Shown here: in pieces, positions 1-24,163 of the stretch | How positions within the stretch are numbered: position 1 is the stretch's first letter | Layout: each line of letters begins with the position of its first letter | Virus record (IMG/VR): IMGVR_UViG_3300021197_001050 | Location: 1 to 25,102 of that record | From: a virus | DNA length: 25,102 bases | Direction: 5' to 3' (one strand) | The notes under the pieces: model-generated | Databases searched by the model: none | What the model saw: only the letters and a program-made list of their open reading frames with translations | What the model was told of the DNA's origin: nothing | Translations under genes and position numbers: made by a program

Positions 1-3000
1 AAGTTACATTGGCTGTATCCGTTACGTCAGCACTAGCCTCAATGCCATCTAGCTTAGTCTTATCTCCATTAGCAAAAGCTCCTTCAGTGGGTTTAACCTG
101 TAGTGTAGAGATAGTAACCCCTTTAACGCCAGCTAAGTCGGTTAGCTCGCTATCCATTAGGGCGCCCGCTGCGGTCACATTGGTAGCATCTGTAACGTCT
201 GCCCCATCCTCAACATTAATCATAGTTCTAAGGTCTGCTGGCGATATTTCTTCTACGACGCCTGCTCCTGCACTATCTCTACCAAGGATTCTGTTTGTAG
301 CGGTCACGTTTTGCATCTTGGCGTAAGTTACAGCATCATCAGCTATTGTGCTAGTAATTGAGATGCCTGCCGAACCGTCGAAGTTTGCTGTACCCGTTAC
401 GTCTCCAGCTAACGCTATAGCTCTTGCTGCAGTAAGAGTGGCCGCACTTCCAGTTGTATTTTGGTTAAGTGTACCTATAGTGAACGTTAAGTCATACGGA
501 TCGCCGTCCGTTCCGTCACTAGTGTCGGTCCAATTGATGGTAAGTCCACCAGCACCAATAAATTTAACTTCTTTATTGTTATTGATGGTTACTTCATCGC
601 CGCTGTCATCCTCAAGAATAAACTGTGACATTGATCCGCCACCGCCACCTCCACCGCTTCCATTGGCGGCAGCAGTAATTCTACCTTGAGCATCAACCGT
701 GATGTCTGCATTTGTGTAACTTCCAGCAGTTACGGATGTGTTTGCAAGATGCGATGCACCAATGCCGTCAGCTTTAACTCTTAGTGAATCACTATTTATT
801 TCTATTGTGCTGTCATCAACATTTACACTTAAAGTATCACCCGTTAATGTTAAACCGTCACCAGCAGTAAGATTTGTGTCATCCCCAATGTCAATTTGAC
901 CCAGCGTTATTGCTTGGGTTGAAATTGAAAGATAATCATGACTTGATGTAACCAATGTTACATTCGTGGAGTTGTCAGTACCGGCAGCGTCTACACCTAG
1001 TGTAGTTCTCATCGCTGAAACATTCGCATCATCCAATAAACCCCTAGCTGCTGCTGTCAAGTCCGTAACAGCATACGTATCAGAGCCTGTGGTGTAAATC
1101 ATCTTGTCAGCAGCGGTAGTTAATCCAGCTATAGATGTCAAGCCTGCGTCTACAGCTTGTTTGCCAGCTAATGCAGTAGTAATAGTTGAGGCATAACTAG
1201 CATCGTCATTAATCGCTGCTGCAAGTTCATTCAGTGTATCTAAAGCTCCGGGCGCTCCACCAATAAGATTGGTTATCTCTGTGTCTACATAAGATTTAAT
1301 AGATTGCTGTGTAGCTAAATGACTAGCGCTATTGGAAGTCATGTCATCTTCATCTTTGACGGGAACGGTAAAGTCTATATTACCATCCGTATCGTCGTAA
1401 GTGACAGTTATAAATGTCTCATCACCATCTAGCATACCTCCCACAAAGTCCTCAACCTCCTCTTGGGTAAGTTGAGTATCTGTGTTTGTTACTGTCTCTG
1501 TTGCTGTTACCAATCCCGTAACATGTCCATTACTATCAAGAGTAATGTCTTGGATGTAAGTTCTACCAGAATTATCACTGCTTGAAGCAGCACTAATCGT
1601 CGGGTGCGCAGTTAAGTATCCAGCAGAACTGTGATCTCCCCACCCGTATGCCGTATCCCACTGACCAACCTTAGTGTCTGTAATCGTGTTAGTACCCATA
1701 TCAATGCTATTTCCGTTAGCATCTAATGTGCCACCCAGCTGAGGTGTTGCGTCTTCAACTATATTGGAAATACCACCACCACCACCAATTTCAGACCCAT
1801 TAAAATATAGGTCTCCACCATCATTATATAAAACATTGGTTGTGTTGGAGGGTTGACCATCTAGAAGCTGTAAACCACTACCAAGTTGTAGTTGACGATT
1901 GCCACTATCAAATATAAATAGAGGGTCTGTTTGTGAGCCACCAGCAGTTGTGTCAGACTTAGTAGTGACAAATGGAACACCACTTGCATTTAACTCTGCT
2001 TCTGATTTTAAGTCACCACCACCAAGTTTAGGATGACCGATTTGAACCAAGACGGAACCACTGGAATGACTTCTTATTACGTGACCAATAGCAACCTTGT
2101 AATTAGGAATCACGGGAGAAACATTTACACCACTACCAACTTCTGTTGCAGATAAGAATATTTCATCGCCAGCAGAGAAGCGAGAGGTATCTATGTCCCT
2201 AACGACACCATAGGTTGTAACATAGCCAAAAGAATTATGTTCAATACTGTGCGTAGCAAGACCAACAATCTGAGAGGAAGATTCTGAATTAGCAATAGCG
2301 CCTGAGATAGTGGGTGCAGCATTTCCATGTGCGCCATTAATAAGAACGGCAGTTCCGTTCTCGATAGTTGCGCCCGTATTATTTCTAACTCTTAGGAATT
2401 CCTCTTGACCAAGCTGTAGAGTTACATCTGCTTCGTCATTATATAAACTTAATGTATGGTTTTCATTATCATAAAAAAGAACACCCTCTTGATGAGGAGG
2501 ATAATTAGCTTCCGAAATAGGGGTCATATCTAAAGAATCAAATAAACCACTACTAGCCGTGATATTATTATTTACAGTTATAGCATTGGTAGTAACGCTA
2601 CCATTATCTGTGACAGACTGTAAATTGTGACCAGAAGCAAAGACAGCAATTCCAGATATATAAACAATGTTTTCGTCAGTTAAATCAACCCTAGACTCAA
2701 AGTATCCTGAGTTCGCAGTGATACTAGAAGAATTACTTGAAATGTTAGAATCTGATGAATCTACGCGAGACTCAAAGTACCCAGACAAAGAAGAATCGTT
2801 ATATAATAATCCAGATACAATTGCTATATCTGTTTTGTTTTGCGCAGCTATTCCTGAAGTAACAACACCGCTAGCAGAGTTTGCTCTTATTTCTTGCAAA
2901 TAATAATCGCCAGACGAAAAAGGTAATCCATCTACACCTCCACCGCCAGCAGTGGTTTGAATAGTACCGTCTGAAAATCTAATAGCATTAAACCTACCGC

Positions 3001-3835
3001 TTGGAGAAATAACATTTCCAGAAGTTTCAAAATCTCCATGTTGATTTATACTTGCTTTTTCATCAGTTGCCACACTCCAAGTTTGCAGATCGGCAGCATG
3101 ACTTACGCTAGACTCAATAGCAAAAACAGTATGTGCTACAGAGGTATTTTTGGCGGTGGTTGTTTCATCTGAAGATAGATCTAGGTTTTGAATGGCAATT
3201 TCACCGCCATTTTTGCGGATGTCAATAATATTTTTAAGTTGATGGTGTATTTGCAGCCCTTCAGAGTTTCCATCTCCAATACTTAGAATGGAAGAAGAGT
3301 TACCTCTAAGTTCAACAAAACCATCTTTGCCAGTAACCAACGCATAATATGGGGCAACAATTTCAGACGTGGTTGTTTTAAGTCCAAGTTTCCAAACGGG
3401 GTCTGTTCCTTCTTCAAGAAAAAAAGAAGAAACTCTATTTGTATGATCTGAAGATAGGACTTGCCAATAATCACCATCGTCTGATCTTCTAAAAACAAAC
3501 GGAACTGGTAGAACAATCGAATTGTCAGCGTCTTTAAAAACAAGCCTATCAGCAGGAACAACACAAAAAACAATTGCTGTGCCAGATATACTTATTTTAT
3601 TATCACTATTAGAGCTTTGAAATATAGTATCTCTGCTTAGTGTATTTGATGAGTATGTGCCAATACCAATTTCAAAATTAGCCTCATTTTGTATACAATA
3701 ATAGGTAGTATTGCCATCACCAATAGCGCTAGAAAAAGATTGGAAGCCACCAAACGTAGCGCCACTAAGGGTGATTGTTCCAGTACCTTCAGTTATAGTG
3801 GTTTCTTTTACTCTGTCTGCTATTATTAAAGCCAT
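1..3835 (-). CDS. giant tail fibre protein, C-terminus beyond the window
   Basis: The minus strand is open from an ATG at 3835 to the left edge, giving at least 1278 codons with no stop. The gene is partial. It starts MALIIADRVKETTITEGTGT, an N-terminal module I recognise from many marine phage fibres, where it is presumed to attach the fibre to the virion. Around residues 470-600 is a tail-protein domain (NGTAVLINGAHG ... GDEIFLS ... IGHVIRSHSSGSVLVQIG). Around residues 700-800 are WDTAYGWGDHSSAGYLTAHP and ITLDSNGHVTG segments common in phage fibres. The far end contains DVTDATNVTAAGA and DVTDTANVT repeats. The whole is rich in Ser, Thr, Gly, Asp and Asn, as expected for beta-structured trimeric fibres. 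Its likely role is receptor binding, and the tip lies outside the window. A late-type promoter element precedes it at 3871-3888. The exact domain borders are inferred. Confidence 0.9.
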   Translation of the reverse strand, partial: MALIIADRVKETTITEGTGTITLSGATFGGFQSFSSAIGDGNTTYYCIQNEANFEIGIGTYSSNTLSRDTIFQSSNSDNKISISGTAIVFCVVPADRLVFKDADNSIVLPVPFVFRRSDDGDYWQVLSSDHTNRVSSFFLEEGTDPVWKLGLKTTTSEIVAPYYALVTGKDGFVELRGNSSSILSIGDGNSEGLQIHHQLKNIIDIRKNGGEIAIQNLDLSSDETTTAKNTSVAHTVFAIESSVSHAADLQTWSVATDEKASINQHGDFETSGNVISPSGRFNAIRFSDGTIQTTAGGGGVDGLPFSSGDYYLQEIRANSASGVVTSGIAAQNKTDIAIVSGLLYNDSSLSGYFESRVDSSDSNISSNSSSITANSGYFESRVDLTDENIVYISGIAVFASGHNLQSVTDNGSVTTNAITVNNNITASSGLFDSLDMTPISEANYPPHQEGVLFYDNENHTLSLYNDEADVTLQLGQEEFLRVRNNTGATIENGTAVLINGAHGNAAPTISGAIANSESSSQIVGLATHSIEHNSFGYVTTYGVVRDIDTSRFSAGDEIFLSATEVGSGVNVSPVIPNYKVAIGHVIRSHSSGSVLVQIGHPKLGGGDLKSEAELNASGVPFVTTKSDTTAGGSQTDPLFIFDSGNRQLQLGSGLQLLDGQPSNTTNVLYNDGGDLYFNGSEIGGGGGISNIVEDATPQLGGTLDANGNSIDMGTNTITDTKVGQWDTAYGWGDHSSAGYLTAHPTISAASSSDNSGRTYIQDITLDSNGHVTGLVTATETVTNTDTQLTQEEVEDFVGGMLDGDETFITVTYDDTDGNIDFTVPVKDEDDMTSNSASHLATQQSIKSYVDTEITNLIGGAPGALDTLNELAAAINDDASYASTITTALAGKQAVDAGLTSIAGLTTAADKMIYTTGSDTYAVTDLTAAARGLLDDANVSAMRTTLGVDAAGTDNSTNVTLVTSSHDYLSISTQAITLGQIDIGDDTNLTAGDGLTLTGDTLSVNVDDSTIEINSDSLRVKADGIGASHLANTSVTAGSYTNADITVDAQGRITAAANGSGGGGGGGSMSQFILEDDSGDEVTINNNKEVKFIGAGGLTINWTDTSDGTDGDPYDLTFTIGTLNQNTTGSAATLTAARAIALAGDVTGTANFDGSAGISITSTIADDAVTYAKMQNVTATNRILGRDSAGAGVVEEISPADLRTMINVEDGADVTDATNVTAAGALMDSELTDLAGVKGVTISTLQVKPTEGAFANGDKTKLDGIEASADVTDTANVT

Positions 3836-3870
3836 ATTATTTTCCGTTTATTATAAATAACTTTCTGTAA

Positions 3871-3888
3871 CCTTATATTATAATACAC
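3871..3888 (-). promoter_or_regulatory. putative late promoter of the giant fibre gene
   Basis: The minus strand reads GTGTATTATAATATAAGG, 35 nt before the fibre ATG at 3835 and just downstream of the preceding gene's stop. It belongs to a set of six similar elements in this window. No TTGACA-like -35 box is evident. Promoter function is inferred from recurrence and position. Confidence 0.55.
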
Positions 3889-3900
3889 TATTTTATCTTG

Positions 3901-5742
3901 TTATAGAGGGTCTAGTTCTGGATCGTCATCATCGCCGTCGCCATCACCGTCATCATCGCCGTAGATATCACCGTCACTGCAACAGTTACACCCACAGCAC
4001 TCACAATCTGATATACCCCAAGCGCAAGGGCTTCCAGTATGTTGAGAACAATCAGTGTTTAGATCTGGAGACCAACTTAAAAAGACAGCCTGTTTGCCAT
4101 CTCTATCAGAGATGCTGGTTCCGACATTGTTAAACATATTCTGGTATACTTCGCAATCTTCCTGAGTTGTTAAAGAAGAAGCAACAACAAAGCCAACATC
4201 GGTGGCGGATTGATCAACACATAGACAACATACTCCAAGTGGAGCTTCAGTAGTAGTTGTAGTTCCTGCACTGATTCCCCCGCCGGTTCCGCCACCAGTT
4301 CCGCCACCAGTTCCGCCACCAGTTCCGCCACCAGTTCCGCCATCAGTTCCGCCATCAGTTCCGCCGCCGGTTCCGCCATCAGTTCCGCCATCAGTTCCGC
4401 CGCCGGTTCCGCCATCAGTTCCGCCGCCGGTTCCGCCACCAGTTCCGCCACCAGTTCCGCCACCAGTTCCGTCGCCACCGCCTGCACCGCCGCCAGTGGG
4501 GTCGTCGTCAGGAACGTCAGGATTATCAGGGTCTTCAGGGTCTTCAAAGCAATCCTCAAAACAATTAGTGTCAGGACAAGCAGGAGTTGCACAACAAGGT
4601 GCTAGGACAGCAGTAATGAAACAATCGGAACTAAATCTTCCTCCAATTCCATCGCAAAACTCCTCGGTCACATCCCGATAGAATATACCAGCGCCACAGC
4701 AGTCCGATGCGCAATCGCGGCAACATCCAAGTGGAGGGGCAGCGGTTGTAGTTGTAGTTGTGGTGTTAACGTCTGGGTCTGGACAGTCTAAGCAGCTATT
4801 ATATATGTCTCCAATTCCACCCCCCGGTTTATCGCTGCCTTTTACGTAACTTTTGCACTTTTGCCCCGGAGTCGCACTATTGGTGGCACATCCAGCAAGG
4901 TCGGTTTCCGTACAGCTTATTAAGCTAAGATCGACATCGCTGTAGCAGCAACAGATAATAACTGGAGCTTCAGTAGTTGTAGTTGTTGGAGCAACAGTCG
5001 TTGTAGTCGGGGCTTGGGTTGTGGTTGGAGTTGCGGTTGTTGTTGTTGTTGGGGTGGCGGTTGTAGTTGTAGTACATACGCCGGGGGAATCACACGACGG
5101 ACATTGAAAAATGGCAGCATCAGCGCAAGTACCCGGACCTTGAATTGGAAGCAAGCCCATGTTTAGAAGGTCTCTAGAATAAGCGCTTGCTTGGTCTTTA
5201 TTTGGAAATTCAACACACCTTCTAGTTTGCTGTGTTTTTTCAGGGCAATTAGGACAAGGCCGTGGTTCAAGACAAACAACTACGAAAAATGGCTCTTCAG
5301 GTGGATCAGTGGTTGAAGTCGTTGTTGTTGGGCCTTCTGTGGTAGTTGTTGTAGTTGGGCAGGAGTCATTGAAAGCAACAGAATAATCAAAACAAAGAGG
5401 TTCACAGCAGTCTCCATAAACGTTAGCACACGCTCCCTCAAAAGGATCTGAAGAATGTTGGCTATTCCATTCGTTTGCAATCGACGCTGTACTTGGGCAA
5501 GAACACTCCCTGTTAAAACAATTATATATTTCCCAAACATCTCGCCAAGCATTATCGGTGTATTCGTATCTACACTGTATGCCACCCTGATTAGCACAAG
5601 GTGGCGGTAGTGTTGTTGTTGGCGGTGGTTGCGTTGTTGTTGGCGGTGGTGGCGTTGTTGGTGGAAACAACGTCGTTGTTGTTGGACCAGCAGTCGTGGT
5701 TGTAGTGGGACAACAAGAATAACACTGTGTAGGTCTACCCAT
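3901..5742 (-). CDS. Cys-rich, Thr-linker and Gly-repeat surface protein, probably virion-associated
   Basis: This 613-residue protein alternates poly-Thr/Pro linkers (about residues 10-47, 128-150, 222-260, 325-337 and 495-502) with compact Cys-rich modules. Several modules begin in a similar way after a linker: LGCCRDC, LGVCCLC and VIICCCY. This suggests a duplicated disulfide-bonded or metal-binding unit. Residues about 420-492 are a TGGG/TDGG tandem repeat. The last 25 residues are a DG-rich acidic tail (DGDIYGDDDGDGDGDDDD) that resembles stacked EF-hand calcium loops. There is no signal peptide or membrane segment. It lies 1 nt after the stop of the upstream glycosyltransferase gene, with a GGAAAG ribosome site inside that gene's end, so the two are translationally linked. 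No known family was recognised; a decorated fibre or adhesin is the best inference from neighbours and composition. Confidence 0.8.
   Translation of the reverse strand: MGRPTQCYSCCPTTTTTAGPTTTTLFPPTTPPPPTTTQPPPTTTLPPPCANQGGIQCRYEYTDNAWRDVWEIYNCFNRECSCPSTASIANEWNSQHSSDPFEGACANVYGDCCEPLCFDYSVAFNDSCPTTTTTTEGPTTTTSTTDPPEEPFFVVVCLEPRPCPNCPEKTQQTRRCVEFPNKDQASAYSRDLLNMGLLPIQGPGTCADAAIFQCPSCDSPGVCTTTTTATPTTTTTATPTTTQAPTTTTVAPTTTTTEAPVIICCCYSDVDLSLISCTETDLAGCATNSATPGQKCKSYVKGSDKPGGGIGDIYNSCLDCPDPDVNTTTTTTTAAPPLGCCRDCASDCCGAGIFYRDVTEEFCDGIGGRFSSDCFITAVLAPCCATPACPDTNCFEDCFEDPEDPDNPDVPDDDPTGGGAGGGDGTGGGTGGGTGGGTGGGTDGGTGGGTDGGTDGGTGGGTDGGTDGGTGGGTGGGTGGGTGGGTGGGISAGTTTTTEAPLGVCCLCVDQSATDVGFVVASSLTTQEDCEVYQNMFNNVGTSISDRDGKQAVFLSWSPDLNTDCSQHTGSPCAWGISDCECCGCNCCSDGDIYGDDDGDGDGDDDDPELDPL
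4273..4475 (-). repeat. 12-bp tandem repeat coding TGGG/TDGG
   Basis: On the plus strand a 12-bp unit of the type CCGCCACCAGTT recurs about 17 times. Variants CCGCCATCAGTT (giving Asp) and CCGCCGCCGGTT (synonymous) are interspersed. All units keep the reading frame of the 613-residue protein. Such arrays expand and contract by slippage, so unit number may vary between relatives. Confidence 0.9.
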
Positions 5743-5743
5743 A

Positions 5744-6793
5744 TCACTTTCCGTAAATTGTTTTTGCTTCTTCTAAAAACTGATTATATTTATTTTCATC
5801 AAATTTAGCGTCTTCTACAAATTCTTTATATACAGGTGATAAGTCTAGATCTAATTCTGTAAACTCTAATACATAATTTCTAACTTTGTTGTCAATAGTC
5901 AATTCATATTTAACACCGTCTGGTCTAGAAAATCTGTGCAACCACTTTAAAAACGGTAAGCATAGTGCTTTTCTACCAGCCTTCCTGTACTTTTCATGTA
6001 TATAACATTCTTCACCACCAAAGCCCCTACAGTGTTCATTAAAGCCTAACCAAGATCTTTTAGAGGTAAAAAATAACCCAAGACCTTGTGCAAAAACCTC
6101 AAACTCGCTTTCGTCTGAATCAAATCCAACCCTTGTAAAACCAAGCTTTTCAAGTATGCTTTCATGGCGAGGGAAGGCTAATTCTTGCGGAAAAATAGTG
6201 TAGCAATGGTCGCACCACTGGATTTGTTTTTGATTTTCTAAATCTACTATTTTGCAAGCATTGTCTTTATTGATAACGCTAAAGTTTTTCTTTTTACATT
6301 TACAAGCCCAAGCGTTACCCCATCTTCCCCACATTTGACCTCCCCACTCGTCGTTAAAGTGGGTAGAAATCATTGTTAAATTATCATATACAAGTGGACC
6401 TTGATACAAATGCATTGTATTTGGGTATTTATCTATAAACTGAAATAATTTTTCTAGGGTTTGTACAACTGGGCATAGCAATACATGGCAATCCATAACA
6501 AGTACAAAATCAGTTCTTGCTTCTTCAATGATCTTGTTTCTTGTAGAAGATGTACCTTGAGAGTCTGGAAAATCTATGACTCTAAACTTATCGCCAAGGC
6601 CAGTGCCACCCTGAAGGCTTTTAACAGCTTGAGCATGTGCGCTTTCTTTTGCGTTCTCAATAATTACAAATTCAAGTCTATTTAATAAGTCCTCTCTTTT
6701 ATTAAATTTTAATTCTTTTATAATATCTTGAATACTAAAGTAAGTTCCATGAAAGTCCGAATGGTGTGCCATTCCTATGGTTATTTTCCTCAT
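5744..6793 (-). CDS. GT-A glycosyltransferase resembling polypeptide GalNAc-transferases (GT2/GT27-like)
   Basis: This 349-residue protein shows the GT-A pattern: GTSSTRNKIIEEARTDFVLVMD at about residues 80-101, ending in D101-C-H103. This is a D-x-H metal-binding motif of the kind used by polypeptide GalNAc-transferases, where classic GT2 enzymes have D-x-D. Residues 259-289 (GGEECYIHEKYRKAGR ... LPFLKWLHRF) parallel the GGEN...GG...PCS.VGH.FR block of GT27. An insert at about 164-197 has CKC and WCDHC pairs and may bind zinc. There is no transmembrane segment, so it should act in the cytoplasm. It sits directly between two genes whose products carry poly-Thr linkers, so those linkers are natural candidate acceptors; that is inference. 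It could instead be an ordinary GT2 enzyme acting on lipid-linked or host glycans. It is preceded by a late-type promoter element. Confidence 0.75.
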   Translation of the reverse strand: MRKITIGMAHHSDFHGTYFSIQDIIKELKFNKREDLLNRLEFVIIENAKESAHAQAVKSLQGGTGLGDKFRVIDFPDSQGTSSTRNKIIEEARTDFVLVMDCHVLLCPVVQTLEKLFQFIDKYPNTMHLYQGPLVYDNLTMISTHFNDEWGGQMWGRWGNAWACKCKKKNFSVINKDNACKIVDLENQKQIQWCDHCYTIFPQELAFPRHESILEKLGFTRVGFDSDESEFEVFAQGLGLFFTSKRSWLGFNEHCRGFGGEECYIHEKYRKAGRKALCLPFLKWLHRFSRPDGVKYELTIDNKVRNYVLEFTELDLDLSPVYKEFVEDAKFDENKYNQFLEEAKTIYGK

Positions 6794-6827
6794 TAATTTC
6801 TTTTCCTAAGTTAATTTCTAAGTTCCT

Positions 6828-6844
6828 GATTTAATATTATCCAC
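6828..6844 (-). promoter_or_regulatory. putative late promoter of the glycosyltransferase gene
   Basis: The minus strand reads GTGGATAATATTAAATC, 34 nt before the ATG at 6793, in the 62-nt gap after the preceding fibre gene. It differs from the other elements by one base in the GTGTATA core, so it is the weakest member of the set. Confidence 0.4.
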
Positions 6845-6855
6845 TCTTGTTGAAA

Positions 6856-9780
6856 TTATGTATTTGAAACATATGTATAAGCATTAGTGTTGCAATTAAA
6901 CGTAAATGTTACCGTTGCGCCATTGAACGGTGCGCCCCCCGGATATAAAGTTGCTATAATGGTCTCATCTAAGCTGCTACAGCTTTGACCACTGCTACAG
7001 TCTGTCGGGCAAGGTACGTTAGTTCCTGTCGCAGACCAACCGCCACTAAACGCATCATACTCCCAAGTACAAGTAATTATACATGACGGTGCAGCAGTAG
7101 TTGTGGTTGTCGTTGTAGGACCAGCGGTTGTAGTCGTGGTTGTAGTACAAGGACAGTTTAATTCGTAGTAGTCCTTGGCACTTTGCACGTCGTCTCTCAC
7201 GCATTTCAATGGAATAGCGTCTATCTCACTCTGAGTTCTTCCACCCCAGCGATTGTAGGCGCAACCACATCGGGTCATTGGTACTCTAGTGCTATGATCA
7301 TCCCATAGAGAATGCGTTACAACGCCACCAATAAAGGATTCGTCTAAAATATTAGAGCAAGGTCCGGTGTCAGTGAATTGCATCGGGTGACCACAACAAC
7401 CCCACGGAACCAAGGATTGGCATTCGCTACCACCATACCCGCTAGCCATTGTATACTCATGAACCATAGTGAAAACACCAGATCCGTAGTACTGACCTAC
7501 TACGTCTTCAGTAGGTGAAGCGTAAGGATTTTTAACTCCACTGTGAATAAATATTGGATCAACGACGTTGCCGCTCAAGGCAACCGCCCTGAAGGGATCT
7601 CCCGAATTAACACTTGAGTTTATACCTTTACCAAACAAGTCTTGAGGCTTACCTAATTCTTCGTTCCACAGGTAGAACCCAGAAGCAAACGGAACGCACA
7701 ATTTACTACCACCAGAAAGACTACCGGGATAACCTAAATCAAAACCACTAGCCACAGAGTCAAGCATTTGGAATTTATCGTCATCTGTTTGCAATATAGA
7801 CGAACCTTGAAGTTGAATGTCAGTATCAGCAGAGAATTTAGACTCACACAAAAGCTCTTTAAGGATAAAGTTCATATTGTCAATGTCTAAACAACTACCA
7901 GATGTATGAGCGCCTCTTACCCAGATAACACCATTACATCTCATGTAGTTATAAAATACATCAGAAGATGCAGCAACAATACCACTTAACTCTGTCATCG
8001 GACCGCATCTATCGTGATAACCTAGAATTAAAACTCCGCTATTATTGTGGGTTCCGTCAACCCCCATAGTCGTCCTGTTAGTAGGCCATGTCTCATAATT
8101 CAAATTGTCAACAAAAGATTTAAAGTTTGCAAGTGAGACGCCAGACACAAGCTGTGCTGTACTTGGGATAAGCTGACCGTCTGTTTGAAGGGCCATAAAG
8201 CCACTGCCCCAGCCGCTAGCGTCGGGGTTGTCGCTAACTATATCACACGCAGTAATACCAACACCCATCTGCTGCTCTCTGGCGAAATTTCCCTTCTGTT
8301 TCATCGTCAAGAAAAGATCCATAGATGGGTCTTCCGCATCACCTTGGAATGAAGTGTTGATAAATATAGACTTGGCTCCACTAGGAAACTCATGTGCATA
8401 GCCAACAGATGTATGCGGAACCGTTGCAGCAACCTGTTCAGCAGATGGATGTACGTCAATTGCTTCGCAACCAGCATACCCAAACGAAGGAATAGCTGTC
8501 GTAGTTGTGGTTGGTCCAGAAGTTGTCGTAGTCGTTGGCCCAGAAGTTGTCGTAGTCGTTGGTCCAGAAGTTGTCGTAGTCGTTGGCCCAGAAGTCGTTG
8601 TAGTAGTTGGGCCAGCAGTAGTTGTAGTCGTTGAAAGCGGATTTGTAGCGCAGCAGCTAACCCAGATAGGTCTCCATTCTTCGCCATGTTTAGCGAATTG
8701 TGCATATGTGCCGTTATAAATACTTAAACAAGCATCTCTGTTTACGGCATAAAAAGTGTCACCGTCCTCGCAGACACCTTCGCAAGTTCTTTTTTCTCTA
8801 AACAGGCCAGAGGTTGGATTGCAAAAGTCAGTTGCTGGACCTACATCTTCAATAAAGAAACCTTCAGCAAACCTCTGTAAACCAGAACCAGAAGGGCAAA
8901 CAGTGTCTCCATTAACTGTCAAATCGCCATAAATCTGCACATCTCTAAAAAATCCATCCCATCTTAGTTCAGGTGTTCCAAGGTCAAGTCCATCATAACA
9001 TGGTATAATATGTGATGTTGACTTTACAATATCAGAGTGTGGGAATTGAAGCTGACCATTTATAGACTTCCAAGCCCTATTGTCGTTACCAAGGTTAAAA
9101 GTTCTAGTTGCAGTTGGAGAGATATCTCCAGAAACTTGAAGTGTTCCGTAGTTATGTAACTCATTAGTACCAACAGCAAGTTTTAATTCTTGCAAATCTC
9201 CACGAAGCAGCGGAGTTCCAGAACCATCAAGACAACAATCCCCAGAAGCCTCTGGATGAGAGCCTAAATAAAATTGATAACTGTCTGATTTACCTACGTA
9301 GTAGCCAGCGCCATGACCAATAGCTATATTGAAATCACCACCTCTAAGGCCGTAAAGAGTTTTTAAACCAACTCCTACGTTTCCATCCCCCTCTACATTT
9401 CCAACTACAGACGAAAAACCAATAGCTGTGTTGTAGTTTCCATCTAAATTACAGCTAAGAGAGTAGGAACCAAGGGCGGTATTCTGTTTACCATATACAT
9501 TACCACCCATTGAAGAGTATCCAACGGCAGTATTGTCAACTCCGCTTTCGTAAGCAAGATCTAAACCATCTAAAGCTCGTTCCCCAACTTTTGTTTGTCT
9601 TAGGTGGGCAGATTCTATATTTAATGCTTTTATACTGTGTAGCTCAAGAAATCTGTGAGAAGAGTCTACAGCGTTTGTGAAAACATCTCTAACATCCTTG
9701 GGAGATATTTGTTCTGTACTATTGTCTGGTAAGAAAGTATTTAGCGATAGTATGAAATCATTTTCTGAGAACTCTGCCAT
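6856..9780 (-). CDS. tail fibre/virion protein with NTAVG repeats and mucin-like Thr linkers
   Basis: This is a 974-residue protein. Residues 82-160 hold five copies of an N-T-A-x-G-x-x-S-type repeat (DNTAVGYSS, QNTALGSYS, YNTAIGFSS, GNVGVGLKT, FNIAIGHGA), seen in many phage fibres and likely to form a beta-helical shaft. Residues about 382-427 are a mucin-like linker of TTTTTSGP units. A large Cys-containing domain of unknown fold follows (about 430-875). A second linker at about 877-900 (two runs of seven Thr) leads to a Cys-rich C-terminal module (CTWEYDAFSGGW ... CPTDCSSGQSC). That module looks similar to the first Cys module of the 613-residue protein (CRYEYTDNAWRDVW). The start has an AAGGTGGGG ribosome site. 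The gene follows the 155-residue virion gene with a 9-nt gap. A structural, surface-exposed role is likely; receptor specificity cannot be read. Confidence 0.85.
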   Translation of the reverse strand: MAEFSENDFILSLNTFLPDNSTEQISPKDVRDVFTNAVDSSHRFLELHSIKALNIESAHLRQTKVGERALDGLDLAYESGVDNTAVGYSSMGGNVYGKQNTALGSYSLSCNLDGNYNTAIGFSSVVGNVEGDGNVGVGLKTLYGLRGGDFNIAIGHGAGYYVGKSDSYQFYLGSHPEASGDCCLDGSGTPLLRGDLQELKLAVGTNELHNYGTLQVSGDISPTATRTFNLGNDNRAWKSINGQLQFPHSDIVKSTSHIIPCYDGLDLGTPELRWDGFFRDVQIYGDLTVNGDTVCPSGSGLQRFAEGFFIEDVGPATDFCNPTSGLFREKRTCEGVCEDGDTFYAVNRDACLSIYNGTYAQFAKHGEEWRPIWVSCCATNPLSTTTTTAGPTTTTTSGPTTTTTSGPTTTTTSGPTTTTTSGPTTTTTAIPSFGYAGCEAIDVHPSAEQVAATVPHTSVGYAHEFPSGAKSIFINTSFQGDAEDPSMDLFLTMKQKGNFAREQQMGVGITACDIVSDNPDASGWGSGFMALQTDGQLIPSTAQLVSGVSLANFKSFVDNLNYETWPTNRTTMGVDGTHNNSGVLILGYHDRCGPMTELSGIVAASSDVFYNYMRCNGVIWVRGAHTSGSCLDIDNMNFILKELLCESKFSADTDIQLQGSSILQTDDDKFQMLDSVASGFDLGYPGSLSGGSKLCVPFASGFYLWNEELGKPQDLFGKGINSSVNSGDPFRAVALSGNVVDPIFIHSGVKNPYASPTEDVVGQYYGSGVFTMVHEYTMASGYGGSECQSLVPWGCCGHPMQFTDTGPCSNILDESFIGGVVTHSLWDDHSTRVPMTRCGCAYNRWGGRTQSEIDAIPLKCVRDDVQSAKDYYELNCPCTTTTTTTAGPTTTTTTTAAPSCIITCTWEYDAFSGGWSATGTNVPCPTDCSSGQSCSSLDETIIATLYPGGAPFNGATVTFTFNCNTNAYTYVSNT
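8500..8633 (-). repeat. 24-bp tandem repeat coding TTTTTSGP units
   Basis: Four 8-residue TTTTTSGP-like units follow a TTTTTAGP unit, encoded by near-identical 24-bp repeats (plus-strand unit near GTTGTCGTAGTCGTTGGCCC). The copies differ mainly by synonymous changes, so they look recently duplicated and kept for the peptide composition. Confidence 0.9.
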
Positions 9781-10368: not shown

Positions 10369-11376
10369 TTAGAATGAACCCAAAAGGATTCTTCTGTTGT
10401 CAAGAACGCCAAAGCCTAGTTCAGCGAATCCATAGTAACCTGCTCTTTGCTGTCTGTGAAGAGTAGGGTCTTCAAAGACTTGAACAGCCTGCTTCATTGG
10501 CATTACAAAGCTGTCGTTAGCGCCTTGGTCGAGACCAATTACCAACTCAGCATCGCCACTAGCAAGGCCACCACTAAGAGAAGTGGTGAAGAAGTTTTGA
10601 TACTCTTGACCTTCGCCAAGCTCATCAACGTCGTGAAGCGCAACACCAAACACGTTGGTGATAGGAGCGCCATCGCCACCCGCATTGTAGATAGCGGTTC
10701 TGGTTGCGTCAGAAATCTGATCGAATCCCCAGTTACGGACATCTTCAAGAGCCTCTGGAGAAACATAAAGGTCGGTCAGACGACCACGATTTGCGGAACC
10801 AGTATTACCGCCAGCGTTACGACGCATAACAGTCTGCAATAAGCTAACAAGTCTCTTTGAAAACATGCCAGCAGTTGCGTCACCGTCGTAAACTAAAATG
10901 TTACGGTCAACACCAGCAGCAAGTAATGTGTGCCATCCGTCGTCATTCATCTTCTTGACGAATCCGGCTTCCAGAACTTGCATGGCGCGACCAACAATAT
11001 CCCAACGAGCCTCACGCGCAAAGCGCAGTAAGTAGTCAATGCTACTTGTGATGCTGTAAGTTGGGATCATTACGTAATCGCCTTCGACTGATCTCTCAGG
11101 AACACGACCGTGACCGGGATTGGTGTAAGCAACATGCTCACCCTCAAGTCCCGGACTAATGAGATCCAATGGATACTCAGTGCTTCCACCCGGCTCGACT
11201 TGAATAGTCTCGAAAATATTACCGAGGATATTTCCAACCAAAACGCCTTTGCGTAGAGGAAGCTCCAAAGCCTGCGCAAACTCTCTTTGAGCAGCGAAAG
11301 CTACATTTTGATCATTATCACCAGAGCGGCGAAGCAATGTGATAAACTCTTCACTTGGTCTTTCTTTATATGACAT
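10369..11376 (-). CDS. major capsid protein
   Basis: This 335-residue protein is called the major capsid protein from order and sequence style. It follows terminase, portal, protease-scaffold and a decoration-type protein, and ends in a strong terminator. Its sequence has features usual in HK97-fold capsid proteins. An N-terminal helical arm (residues about 1-45) is followed by a G-rich stretch, a long central helix region (ARWDIVGRAMQVLEAGFVKKMNDDGWHTLLAAG), a segment LTDLYVSPEALEDVRNWGFDQIS typical of the P/A-domain region, and a C-terminal GYYGFAELGFGVLDNRRI strand set. A strong AGGAG site precedes the ATG (ataggagataaataca). No late promoter element lies in the 27-nt gap upstream, so it is probably read through from the protease-scaffold promoter. 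Assignment to a named capsid family needs a profile search. Confidence 0.85.
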   Translation of the reverse strand: MSYKERPSEEFITLLRRSGDNDQNVAFAAQREFAQALELPLRKGVLVGNILGNIFETIQVEPGGSTEYPLDLISPGLEGEHVAYTNPGHGRVPERSVEGDYVMIPTYSITSSIDYLLRFAREARWDIVGRAMQVLEAGFVKKMNDDGWHTLLAAGVDRNILVYDGDATAGMFSKRLVSLLQTVMRRNAGGNTGSANRGRLTDLYVSPEALEDVRNWGFDQISDATRTAIYNAGGDGAPITNVFGVALHDVDELGEGQEYQNFFTTSLSGGLASGDAELVIGLDQGANDSFVMPMKQAVQVFEDPTLHRQQRAGYYGFAELGFGVLDNRRILLGSF

Positions 11377-18611: not shown

Positions 18612-18873
18612 TGTTTTTTCTCACTATGCTTTGAAATAAAGATTGATAAAGATTTTCATGTCCTGTTACTTTCTTGTGACACCAGTAACAAAGTGTGATT
18701 CCATTGTCAATATCAAATCTCAAAGTAGATGCATTAGCCCATTTCTGTATGTGGTGTGCATTTAAACGTTTTTTACTTTTACATCCGGGCATTTGACATT
18801 TAAAGTCATCCCTTTTGTATATCTTTATTCTCCAGTCTTTATAGACAGGATCGTTAAAATCTCTTTTTGTCAT
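18604..18873 (-). CDS. HNH endonuclease
   Basis: This 89-residue protein is a small classic HNH domain. Zinc ligands are C26 and C31 (CQMPGC) and C62 and C65 (CYWC). H40-H41 lie in LNAHHIQKW, Asn57 in DIDNGITLC, and H66 directly follows the second zinc pair. Such proteins nick or cut DNA. Those encoded near terminase in cos-type phages assist packaging cleavage, while free-standing copies can be homing enzymes. Here it is embedded in overlapping genes (4 nt with the upstream dehydratase, 8 nt with the ERCC4-type gene) three genes before terminase, which favours a phage function over a recent insertion. The product is basic, as expected for DNA binding. Confidence 0.87.
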   Translation of the reverse strand: MTKRDFNDPVYKDWRIKIYKRDDFKCQMPGCKSKKRLNAHHIQKWANASTLRFDIDNGITLCYWCHKKVTGHENLYQSLFQSIVRKNNG

Positions 18874-19955
18874 TTTAAATCGCTCACAATCATCATTTTA
18901 ACTAAGTCTTTAAAGGAATGTCTAGGTTGCCAATTTAATTTTTCTTTTGCTTTTGAAGAGTTTCCTTTAAGGTAATCTACTTCTGCTGGCCTATAAAACT
19001 CTGGGTCTATAATTACATACTTTTCCCAATCTTCAATTCCAACAGAAGAAAAGGCAATTTGTAAAAATTCACTAATAGTATGAGTTTCACCCGTACAGAT
19101 TACGTAATCGTCTGGATTGTCTTGCTGCAACATTAGCCACATAGCCTCGCAGTAGTCTCCAGCATACCCCCAGTCTCTAAAAGCTTCTAAATTTCCTAAT
19201 CTCAGTTTTGGGAATTCAAAGCCTTGGCCTTTTGATGTCCTGCCAGAAATGTATAATTCTTCTTCTATGTTGCAATTAATAGTGTCTTGTGGCGTTACGC
19301 CCTTTTGGTTACACCACTTGATATAATCGCCTATCCATTTTGTGATTTTTCTGGTTACAAAGTTTTCGCCTCTCCGTGGTCCTTCGTGATTGAATAGTAT
19401 TCCAGCGCTTGCATGTAACCCATATCCCTCTCTGTATAGCCTAGTCATGTAGTGAGCGGCGCATTTAGCTATGGCATAAGGGCTTTGCGGCATAAATTTG
19501 GTGTCTTCATCTTGAAATTTACTTTCAGCGGTCATGCCTACTTCAATATCGTAATTCTTGCCAAACATTTCACTGCTGCTAGCTTGATAAAATCTAGAAT
19601 TTTTCATATCAAGGTCAATCATAGCCTGTAGAATATTTAAGCACCCTTTGCCAGTTATGTCCCATGTAAGTGCTGGTTGTTTGAAAGAAACCGCAACATG
19701 GCTTTGCGCAGCTAGGTTATATACTTCTGCGGCATCTTGGTGGTCTTTTAAAATGTTTATGACAGAGTGGGCGTCTGTAATGTCTCCACTCTCTATCTTT
19801 AGGTTTTTATGGTCTAGTATGTGTTTTATTCTAGAGGTTGTGCTTACGCTAACCCTTCTAGTCACCCCGACTACTTCGTAGTCTTTTTCCAGTAAAAGGT
19901 CTGCCAAGTGGCTTCCGTCTTGTCCCGTGATTCCAAAAATGATTGCTTTTTTCAT
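18870..19955 (-). CDS. gmd: GDP-mannose 4,6-dehydratase
   Basis: This 361-residue enzyme of the extended short-chain dehydrogenase family should convert GDP-mannose to GDP-4-keto-6-deoxymannose, precursor of GDP-fucose, GDP-rhamnose and GDP-perosamine. It has the Rossmann motif GITGQDG at 8-14, an NLAAQSHV segment at 80-87, the active-site region ASSSEMFG at 125-132 and the catalytic pair Y160-x3-K164 in SPYAIAKCAAH. The segments FNHEGPRRGENFVTRKI and RDWGYAGDYCEAMW are characteristic of GMD. Length is typical of the family. A 4-nt overlap links it to the HNH gene, and it sits near two glycosyltransferase genes, suggesting a shared sugar pathway. No GDP-fucose synthase (Fcl) is present in the window, so the second step must come from the host or from outside this region. 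Confidence 0.93.
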   Translation of the reverse strand: MKKAIIFGITGQDGSHLADLLLEKDYEVVGVTRRVSVSTTSRIKHILDHKNLKIESGDITDAHSVINILKDHQDAAEVYNLAAQSHVAVSFKQPALTWDITGKGCLNILQAMIDLDMKNSRFYQASSSEMFGKNYDIEVGMTAESKFQDEDTKFMPQSPYAIAKCAAHYMTRLYREGYGLHASAGILFNHEGPRRGENFVTRKITKWIGDYIKWCNQKGVTPQDTINCNIEEELYISGRTSKGQGFEFPKLRLGNLEAFRDWGYAGDYCEAMWLMLQQDNPDDYVICTGETHTISEFLQIAFSSVGIEDWEKYVIIDPEFYRPAEVDYLKGNSSKAKEKLNWQPRHSFKDLVKMMIVSDLK

Positions 19956-20076: not shown

Positions 20077-20685
20077 TTAATCTATTATAAAATCCTCTAA
20101 TTCAAAATTTGTTACTGGTCTAGTATGTCCATCTGTCTGAAAAAATACTGGACCCTTCTTGGGTGTTAAAAACAACTCTTTTTGTGAGTCGTATGCTAAC
20201 TCCTTGTCGTGCCAGTTTGTTACTTCTATTGATTTTTCGCAAAGGCTTATATAGTATTTTGCAGAGTCTTGTGTTGGTAGTAGTATCGCATGTGCTGCTA
20301 GTGAATTTTTTACTCTGTAGTAATCTTCGTTGTAGTCTGTTAATTCAAGTCTTCCTTGTCCTGCGTTGTGTAAACTTAAACCAAAGTAAATTAATTTAGC
20401 GTCTTCGTTAACATCTAAATCAAAAGGAAATTCATCTAACAACTCCGCGTCGTCCTCTAGTATCAAGCATGGAAGTTTATCGTTGTCTATTGCTATTTGC
20501 GAAGCATCTTTATGTCCACCGGAAACTATATTTACAGTTGCGCTACCGTTCTGAACTGCCACTGGCACTCTTTCGTATGGAAGCCCTAGCTCGTTAAGCT
20601 TTTCTTCCATTCTGATTCTTTTATCGTTAAACGCTGGTCTTTCAGAGTTTATGTAAAGTATACTTATATCGCGGCATTTATTCAT
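20077..20685 (-). CDS. glycosyltransferase, GT25-like
   Basis: This roughly 202-residue protein begins CRDISILYINSERPAFNDKR, the first strand of GT25 enzymes (LOS/LPS galactosyltransferases and collagen galactosyltransferases). It carries the family signature LILEDDAELL (LEDD at residues 76-79) followed by LIYFGLSLHNAG. The usual donor in the family is UDP-galactose. A second typical region (AHAILLPTQDSAKYYI) follows. The start chosen is ATG at 20685 with AGGG upstream; a GTG 21 nt further up is in frame but overlaps the GT6 gene more deeply and has no clear ribosome site. It overlaps the end of the GT6 gene by 8 nt. It is shorter than most GT25 proteins but appears complete. Specificity is unknown. 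Confidence 0.75.
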   Translation of the reverse strand: MNKCRDISILYINSERPAFNDKRIRMEEKLNELGLPYERVPVAVQNGSATVNIVSGGHKDASQIAIDNDKLPCLILEDDAELLDEFPFDLDVNEDAKLIYFGLSLHNAGQGRLELTDYNEDYYRVKNSLAAHAILLPTQDSAKYYISLCEKSIEVTNWHDKELAYDSQKELFLTPKKGPVFFQTDGHTRPVTNFELEDFIID

Positions 20686-21436
20686 ATACGTGAACCCTAT
20701 TGTCACTTATGTTGATTAATTTATTTTTATTTTTCTTTAATTCCTCCTTTATATCTGAGGTGTCTAGGTCCATACTTCTTGTGTATCCTATTCCAGACTT
20801 GTCGCTAACCAAAAATGGAAACATTTCTGTTTTTACAACGTGTGGCTCATTGTAATGAAAGTATTTATTCAAGTAACTCTCATCGTTCCACGGCGGTTCA
20901 TGCGGTATCTTTTTGTCTTCTATTTGCCAAGATCTTAGTAGTTCACACAATTCTATAAAGTTATCTCTTTCTCCACCAAAGAAAGCGCCATAGTAATACA
21001 TCTGTGGCAAATCTGTATCTTCGGGTACATAAGCTTTGGAGGCTGGGTTTCTATCAAAAGGCTTTGAGTCCTTCATCCAATCTCTATTTCCGTAGTGTTC
21101 ACCTCCAACTAGACCACCAATTAAATTAGACATATCAAAAGTCTGATTTACACTTGTGTCTGCATCTAGGTAAAATATGTAGTCAACATCCTTGTCTTTT
21201 AGTTTCATTATATTTTTAAACTTAGAGTTCGTACCTTCAACCCAGTCGGCGTGTTGGTCATGGTAGTACTCTATGTCTATTTCGTCTTGAATGTAGTCAC
21301 TTGGGTCTGTATCAGAAAAGAAGAAAAATTTTACTTGGTCTTCACCTTTATAAAAGTGATGAAACCTTTTTATAAACTTTATTCCTAGTACAAAGTATGA
21401 GTTTGTTGCTACTATTGCTATTCCTATCTTTTTCAT
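20678..21436 (-). CDS. GT6-family glycosyltransferase (histo-blood-group ABO type)
   Basis: This 252-residue protein matches the catalytic domain of GT6, the family of the human A and B transferases and alpha-1,3-galactosyltransferase. Diagnostic segments are the D-x-D motif in YLDADTSVN (D91, D93), MYYYGAFFGGERDNF at 147-160, and PPWNDESYLNKYF at 181-193, which parallels the vertebrate QWHDESHLNKYF acceptor and catalytic loop. Like bacterial members it lacks the stem and transmembrane anchor, but it keeps D-x-D, which many bacterial GT6 proteins have changed to N-x-N. Family members add Gal or GalNAc in alpha-1,3 linkage to galactosides, often fucosylated ones. It has a 4-nt ATGA overlap with the upstream gene. 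A GT6 gene is known in cyanophage P-SSM2, so a phage GT6 has precedent. Confidence 0.87.
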   Translation of the reverse strand: MKKIGIAIVATNSYFVLGIKFIKRFHHFYKGEDQVKFFFFSDTDPSDYIQDEIDIEYYHDQHADWVEGTNSKFKNIMKLKDKDVDYIFYLDADTSVNQTFDMSNLIGGLVGGEHYGNRDWMKDSKPFDRNPASKAYVPEDTDLPQMYYYGAFFGGERDNFIELCELLRSWQIEDKKIPHEPPWNDESYLNKYFHYNEPHVVKTEMFPFLVSDKSGIGYTRSMDLDTSDIKEELKKNKNKLINISDNRVHVYE

Positions 21437-23962: not shown

Positions 23963-24163
23963 ATGAAATCTCCGTGTGTAAGAATATGTTCGCTTAATGA
24001 AGATAATGTTTGTGTGGGTTGTGGAATGACTGTTAGGGATTTAAGAATTTGGAGAGGTGCCAATGACGAAGAAAAACAACAAATCGTCACCGAAAGTAGT
24101 TTACGACTCAAAAGTGTGCGAGCGCTGCGGGACGAAGGTCTTTCTGATGATGGGGAAAAATAA
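23963..24163 (+). CDS. DUF1289-family small Cys protein
   Basis: This 66-residue protein matches the DUF1289 pattern: SPCVRICSLNEDNVCVGCGMTVRDLRIWRGANDEEKQQIV. Cys5, Cys9, Cys17 and Cys20 are the conserved set, followed by the W and the D-E-K-x-x-I helix. Members are short proteins of unknown function in proteobacteria and phages, thought to bind metal. The ATG has an AGAGGG site about 8 nt upstream. It is the first clear rightward gene after the control region. Its last third overlaps the start of the next small gene in another frame by 101 nt, but the domain core ends about where the second protein's zinc ribbon begins. Confidence 0.82.
   Translation: MKSPCVRICSLNEDNVCVGCGMTVRDLRIWRGANDEEKQQIVTESSLRLKSVRALRDEGLSDDGEK

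Follow-up and report, generated by a model that had tools for sequence, protein, structure and literature searches.

Possible mucin-type glycosylation of phage fibres by a predicted GT27-like enzyme encoded between threonine-linker genes

Why would a phage carry a glycosyltransferase (GT) gene between two genes for proteins with poly-Thr linkers? This is the arrangement found in the fibre module of the DNA analysed here, an IMG/VR virus record of 25,102 bases (hereafter, the window). Mucin-type O-glycosylation has been described mainly from animals and protozoa. On the basis of predicted fold, motifs, gene adjacency and co-occurrence, we think it rather probable that the enzyme O-glycosylates the Thr linkers of the virion. 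Hence, phage fibres may carry mucin-type sugars that the phage itself adds.

The locus and its threonine linkers

All large genes of the window are on the minus strand. They comprise sigma-like and sugar genes, a ClpP-like protease, terminase, a portal-sized ORF, a capsid gene and the fibre module (Table 1). The capsid-like protein has hundreds of relatives among viral contigs. Transcription of the fibre module runs from a gp80-like gene, through the genes for the 974-aa fibre, the 349-aa enzyme and the Cys-rich protein of 613 aa, to a long ORF. The enzyme gene thus sits in the structural module, and stops one base ahead of the next ORF's start codon. At the other end of the window (23.4-25.1 kb) the DNA is gene-poor, includes the plus-strand DUF1289 ORF, and differs from the remaining contig. 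This end may derive from the host, be a moron or reflect an assembly join.

Table 1. Features of the window considered in this analysis
Feature	Position	Strand	Evidence or remark
GT27-like GT-A glycosyltransferase, 349 aa	5744..6793	-	PF00535, AlphaFold2 model, Foldseek/VIA matches, 39-row alignment
Virion fibre/tail-spike-like protein, 974 aa	6856..9780	-	PHROG 6002, 4636; upstream neighbour of GT, candidate acceptor
Thr linker block of 974-aa protein, aa 384-428	8497..8631	-	(TTTTT[AS]GP)n
Second Thr linker block of 974-aa protein, aa 879-895	7096..7146	-	
Cys-rich protein, 613 aa	3901..5742	-	Thr linkers and Gly/Thr tract; directly downstream of GT, candidate acceptor
Longest Thr linker block of 613-aa protein, aa 224-257	4972..5073	-	
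Further Thr blocks of 613-aa protein	5671-5706, 5317-5355, 4744-4764, 4249-4263	-	
Thr-linker peptide			TTTTTSGPTTTTTSGP; candidate acceptor
Long virion-like protein	2..3835	-	MALIIADRVKETT...; end of fibre module, incomplete at contig edge
Major capsid protein-like gene	10369..11376	-	Weak tblastn match to Bacillus phage G major head protein; structural-module anchor
GDP-mannose 4,6-dehydratase (GMD)	18870..19955	-	PF16363, 1e-110; considered, unlinked to GT
Small LEDD-motif protein	20077..20706	-	PHROG 24091, function unknown; 'GT25-like' by eye only
GT6-family glycosyltransferase	20678..21436	-	PF03414, 8e-17; considered, sporadic
DUF1289 ORF	23963-24163	+	Opposite strand to large genes

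The poly-Thr linkers that the first-pass annotation had described in the two proteins flanking the GT gene are indeed real. The 974-aa protein has 8 runs of at least four Thr (TTTTTAGP, TTTTTSGP, TTTTTTTAGP and others) and the 613-aa protein, which also has 53 Cys, contains 10 (TTTTTATP, TTTTTEAP and others). In 2000 composition-preserving shuffles of the same proteins, the mean numbers of runs were 0.11 and 0.38, with maxima of 2 and 4, respectively. All four Thr codons are used, mixed inside the runs. Hence, these are not simple microsatellites, and the repeat is maintained at the protein level. Note that Thr-tract DNA matches in two other genomes (G003 and G089) were (ACA)n repeats, and were excluded from linker counts.

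Both proteins had been called virion-like. For the 974-aa protein this is borne out by PHROG matches to virion and tail-spike families (6e-16 and 1e-11). For the 613-aa protein, 'virion' is a description taken from gene position, since its one PHROG match covers the Gly-rich tract. A Gly/Thr/Asp tract of the 613-aa protein, (TGGGTGGGTDGG)n at 4230-4520 of the window, is flanked by Thr linkers. In relatives with a GT-less locus, the MGRP-type gene at the position of the 613-aa protein can be without linkers (e.g. L082 and L100).

Motifs and predicted fold of the enzyme

The motifs D-C-H (residues 101-103), FGGEE (258-262) and HRF (286-288) show little or no variation across 39 relatives. In the 39-row alignment, D101, H103 and Y296 are invariant. 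The earlier description of a GT-A enzyme with D-x-H and a GGEE...HRF block, encoded between the linker genes, therefore stands. The spacing from GGE to H-x-F is 28 residues in 39/39 relatives and in GalNAc-T2, and that from D-x-H to GGE is 96-108 residues in insert-free members versus 107 in GalNAc-T2. Thus, the enzyme has the GT27 metal motif D-x-H, with the H-x-F ligand at the conserved distance from GGE. Where the GT27 Gal/GalNAc-T motif reads WGGEN, all 39 relatives read FGGEE. Marine members, including the enzyme in the window (about residues 163-200), have an insert with Cys pairs (CxC...CxxC), perhaps a zinc knuckle, that is absent from L048-L050.

A comparison of the predicted structure with GT27 and GT2 enzymes had been proposed beforehand, and the outcome favours GT27. 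The AlphaFold2 model, built from the 39-relative alignment, has a mean pLDDT of 92.8 and a pTM of 0.91. In a Foldseek search of the PDB, the best 50 rows were all GT27 polypeptide GalNAc-transferases (best E 1e-12). Aligned by VIA to the catalytic domain of GalNAc-T2 (135-416), the model gave a Z of 23.4, at 2.9 A over 261 residues. The best scores outside GT27 were 17.9 for GlfT2, 17.1 for K4CP and 16.5 for B4GALNT1. Hence, the model has a GT-A catalytic domain in the GT27 arrangement, 5.5 Z units above the next family.

Sequence comparisons point elsewhere, and bear on a rival explanation. An ordinary GT2-type enzyme, modifying host surface polysaccharide or lipid for receptor masking or superinfection exclusion, might be in the fibre module by chance. 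Consistent with this, the enzyme passes Pfam PF00535, and is thus named GT2 (34.9 bits against a cut-off of 23.3), NCBIfam gave sub-threshold GT matches only, mostly to polysaccharide enzymes, and the PDB matches of the enzyme family's profile were to GT2-type enzymes and confined to their N-terminal half. Conversely, the predicted fold scores over 5 Z units higher with GT27, a reading of the neighbouring ORFs revealed no obvious flippase or membrane partner, and adjacency of GT and linkers is kept in very distant phages. We consider this rival unlikely.

How should the enzyme be named? A PDB sequence search with the single protein gave no match, and hhalign of the enzyme family against GalNAc-T1/T2 gave a probability below 3%, which is not significant (over the portion compared, the GalNAc-T2 query is in agreement with its PDB counterpart). 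The GT27 resemblance therefore rests on structure and motifs. Furthermore, the 349-aa enzyme stops after the catalytic domain, with no ricin-type lectin domain and no second Pfam domain above cut-off. Given the lack of profile similarity, FGGEE in place of WGGEN and the missing lectin domain, we refer to the enzyme as GT27-like, rather than as a GT27 member.

Members of the family from freshwater phages and planctomycetes have about 280-350 extra C-terminal residues (L042:8985-10022, L050:8889-9767, L338:8928-9770 and others). The extra domain was modelled as a class I O-methyltransferase (Z 15-17.5), with a pLDDT of 75 overall and mostly 86-97 in the core blocks. The enzyme encoded in the window is without this domain.

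Linkage of enzyme and linkers across relatives

If the linkers are the substrate, enzyme and linkers should occur together, and co-occurrence of the GT gene with poly-Thr proteins was a check that the first-pass annotation had asked for. We used 58 GT loci, from 50 viral contigs and 8 bacterial genome contigs, and scored an ORF on the same strand as Thr-rich if 30 residues held at least 12 Thr and at least 15 Thr/Ser/Pro. A Thr-rich ORF immediately adjoins the GT at 43 of the 58 loci. Counted by 90% identity clusters, a Thr-rich linker ORF adjoins the GT in 30/38 and lies at most two genes away in 34/38, where two-gene cases were added by hand. At related GT-less loci, Thr-rich segments occur in 4.5% of ORFs of at least 150 aa, and 8.8% of those of at least 350 aa. 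The pairing is kept at Chthoniobacter, Pirellulales, Planctomyces, Thermogutta and Chloroflexota loci, with 33-57% identity, Planctomycetes and Verrucomicrobia genomes included. At the bacterial loci (Chthoniobacter flavus, Pirellulales, Planctomyces, Thermogutta and a Chloroflexota MAG), the linker is directly upstream or one gene beyond, where upstream DNA is covered. These GT loci in bacterial genomes look like prophage fibre modules. The enzyme had no relative among 50,697 GenBank phages; hence, that collection provides no known isolate.

Five further linker-bearing genomes, of 97-136 kb, have no GT beside the linkers. In each, a diverged GT relative of 283-303 aa is encoded elsewhere; hence, co-occurrence extends in trans. 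Genes for the short, diverged form are at L414:1111-1959 and L415:1480-2343, where the adjoining gene is nuclease-like by eye (MLITYIRSSSYNNYGYCEMQYFMTYV...). PF01370 epimerases, which may or may not provide UDP-GalNAc, are also present, several of them in some large genomes.

Presence and absence were also compared between genomes. Among records of at least 80 kb, linkers are in 9/10 with the GT versus 1/5 without (Fisher about 0.02, uncorrected for relatedness, from records that are possibly incomplete). Of 46 capsid-clade regions, each read between the capsid gene and the closing ORF, 16/21 with the GT have linkers versus 7/25 without (Fisher 0.003). The capsid tree can be explained by just three changes in GT presence, of which two to three are concordant (sign test p 0.25). 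Hence, the capsid-clade association is not significant after phylogeny. These few independent changes, together with the mosaic nature of fibre modules, would suit an explanation by hitch-hiking, where the GT and the linker genes are functionally unrelated and only have a recombination hotspot of the fibre module in common. We regard this as very improbable: in five genomes the GT that accompanies the linkers is encoded a long way from the fibre module, and the pairing spans relatives at 33-92% identity and several host phyla.

Exceptions occur in both directions. One GT-bearing subclade (L025/L026/L028, L074, L255 and L256) has an intact GT and no Thr linkers in the fibre module, and L023/L024/L059, also with the GT, have just one T8 run. 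Linkers are present, and no GT was found, in the partial records G074 and G001.

Seen from the linker side, the picture is different. TTTTTxxPTTTT linkers are very frequent in environmental viral contigs, at no fewer than 120 loci (L132-L251), mostly with no recognisable adjoining GT. The GT is present at 1/120 of the loci listed, and 119/120 are without. Similarly, a Pfam scan of ORFs adjoining linkers (127) against distant ones (110) detected no general GT enrichment. Hence, Thr linkers as such do not imply the system. In two unrelated phage contigs, a GT of Pfam family PF11397 (GT60-type, GlcNAc) adjoins a Thr-linker gene (L170, near 3632-4348, and L210, near 3452-4174). Here, a second enzyme may have taken on the same task independently.

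The exceptions matter for another alternative, that the enzyme glycosylates the virion at non-linker sites, such as Cys-rich folded domains of the fibres, with the linkers acting as passive spacers. Both the linker-free subclade that retains an intact enzyme and the frequency of linkers without the enzyme are compatible with this. However, adjacency and trans co-occurrence track the linkers, and GT27-type active sites act upon extended Thr/Ser/Pro peptides. We judge modification at other sites to be distinctly unlikely. We conclude that the linkage is strong in one direction: the enzyme is nearly always with linkers, and linkers do not require the enzyme. The two computable outcomes that the first-pass annotation named as counting against its proposal, a structural match to GT2 enzymes and missing linkage in related phages, were not observed.

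Sugar genes, proposed mechanism and known systems

A more elaborate glycan had also been suggested, ABO-like or fucosylated and built by several enzymes, from a GT6, a GT25-like protein and GMD encoded on the same strand. Pfam matches uphold GT6 and GMD as sugar genes; the 'GT25-like' protein had no GT25 match in Pfam or NCBIfam, only PHROG 24091, and is found at 3/332 loci scanned. Che8 gp110 was considered as its homologue, and not accepted (blastp E 0.065). The GMD-like protein has a split profile match of 379 bits, under the TIGR01472 cut-off of 415, and its position is conserved in the clade. Most relatives in the capsid clade have GMD, also where the locus is without the GT. GT6 does not co-occur consistently with the enzyme, since it is at 4/332 loci scanned and two of the four are without the GT in the stretch examined. 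No fucose synthase was recognised in the 25,102-base window. Hence, although GT6 and GMD lie on one strand, the ABO-like or fucosylated glycan is unsupported, and of all the explanations we give this one the least credence.

We favour glycosylation of the linkers themselves. The phage would encode a soluble, metal-dependent GT-A enzyme with a polypeptide GalNAc-transferase catalytic core, expressed from the fibre gene cluster alongside its substrates. Inside an infected cell, the enzyme would move a sugar, with a UDP-sugar as the probable donor, onto Thr hydroxyls of TTTTTxxP linkers in both neighbouring virion proteins. The glycosylated linkers would be stiff, protease-resistant, mucin-like stalks that separate folded fibre domains. 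For the predicted enzyme, we infer a putative Thr acceptor, UDP-HexNAc donor and retaining chemistry, with stalk formation or shielding as the function.

A wider reading is conceivable, and we offer it tentatively, at somewhat less than even likelihood. Bacterial viruses might run true mucin-type O-glycosylation, adding alpha-HexNAc to clustered Thr of dedicated linkers, using an enzyme that shares the core of animal ppGalNAc-transferases. Such a system would be widespread, from marine to planctomycete phages, with a fused O-methyltransferase that could cap the sugar in some lineages, and may be an independent or ancestral branch of the GT27 fold. If linkers are glycosylated as proposed, viruses of bacteria construct mucin-like stalks, and the purpose of poly-Thr linkers in environmental phage fibres is explained, at least where the enzyme occurs. 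A compact, soluble, lectin-free enzyme would also be available with which bacterial expression hosts could O-glycosylate Thr repeats. Since enzyme and candidate acceptor are encoded side by side, the pair is directly testable.

Virion glycosylation has been reported for mycobacteriophages Che8, Corndog and Myrna (Freeman et al. 2023, as cited in PMC12363180), with capsid and tail tube as the known targets (PMC12363180). The likeness is that phage GTs modify the phage's own virion proteins, as shown for mycobacteriophages and proposed here. The proposed targets differ, being Thr linkers rather than capsid and tail tube. The enzymes also differ: Che8 gp108 is a GT2 with a methyltransferase, gp109 is GT2-like and gp110 is a GT25, and the profile of our enzyme family matched none of the three. 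The fusion in gp108, of GT2 to a TylF/Methyltransf_24 O-methyltransferase, parallels the fusion of GT and O-methyltransferase in relatives of the enzyme. Thus, phage virion glycosylation is already known. We found no mucin-type enzyme/acceptor pair in phages in the literature searched.

Among the next-best structural neighbours, K4CP (a GT2 bifunctional polymerase) and B4GALNT1 share the GT-A fold; they differ in scoring 6-7 Z units lower, and in having glycans or lipids as substrates. GT60-type enzymes, which include protozoan polypeptide GlcNAc-transferases acting on Thr, resemble the enzyme in adjoining Thr linkers in the two other phage contigs, but belong to another Pfam family and are absent from the window. 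The closest comparison is with GT27, the animal and Toxoplasma ppGalNAc-Ts. Unlike these, the phage enzyme has no significant profile similarity, reads FGGEE rather than WGGEN and is without a ricin-type lectin domain, the marine forms have about 50 extra residues containing Cys pairs, and donor and acceptor are putative. Like GT27 enzymes, it has a GT-A core of about 260 residues, superposing at 2.9 A, with D-x-H, GGE and H-x-F at the 28-residue spacing, and Thr/Pro-rich acceptors, which here are candidates.
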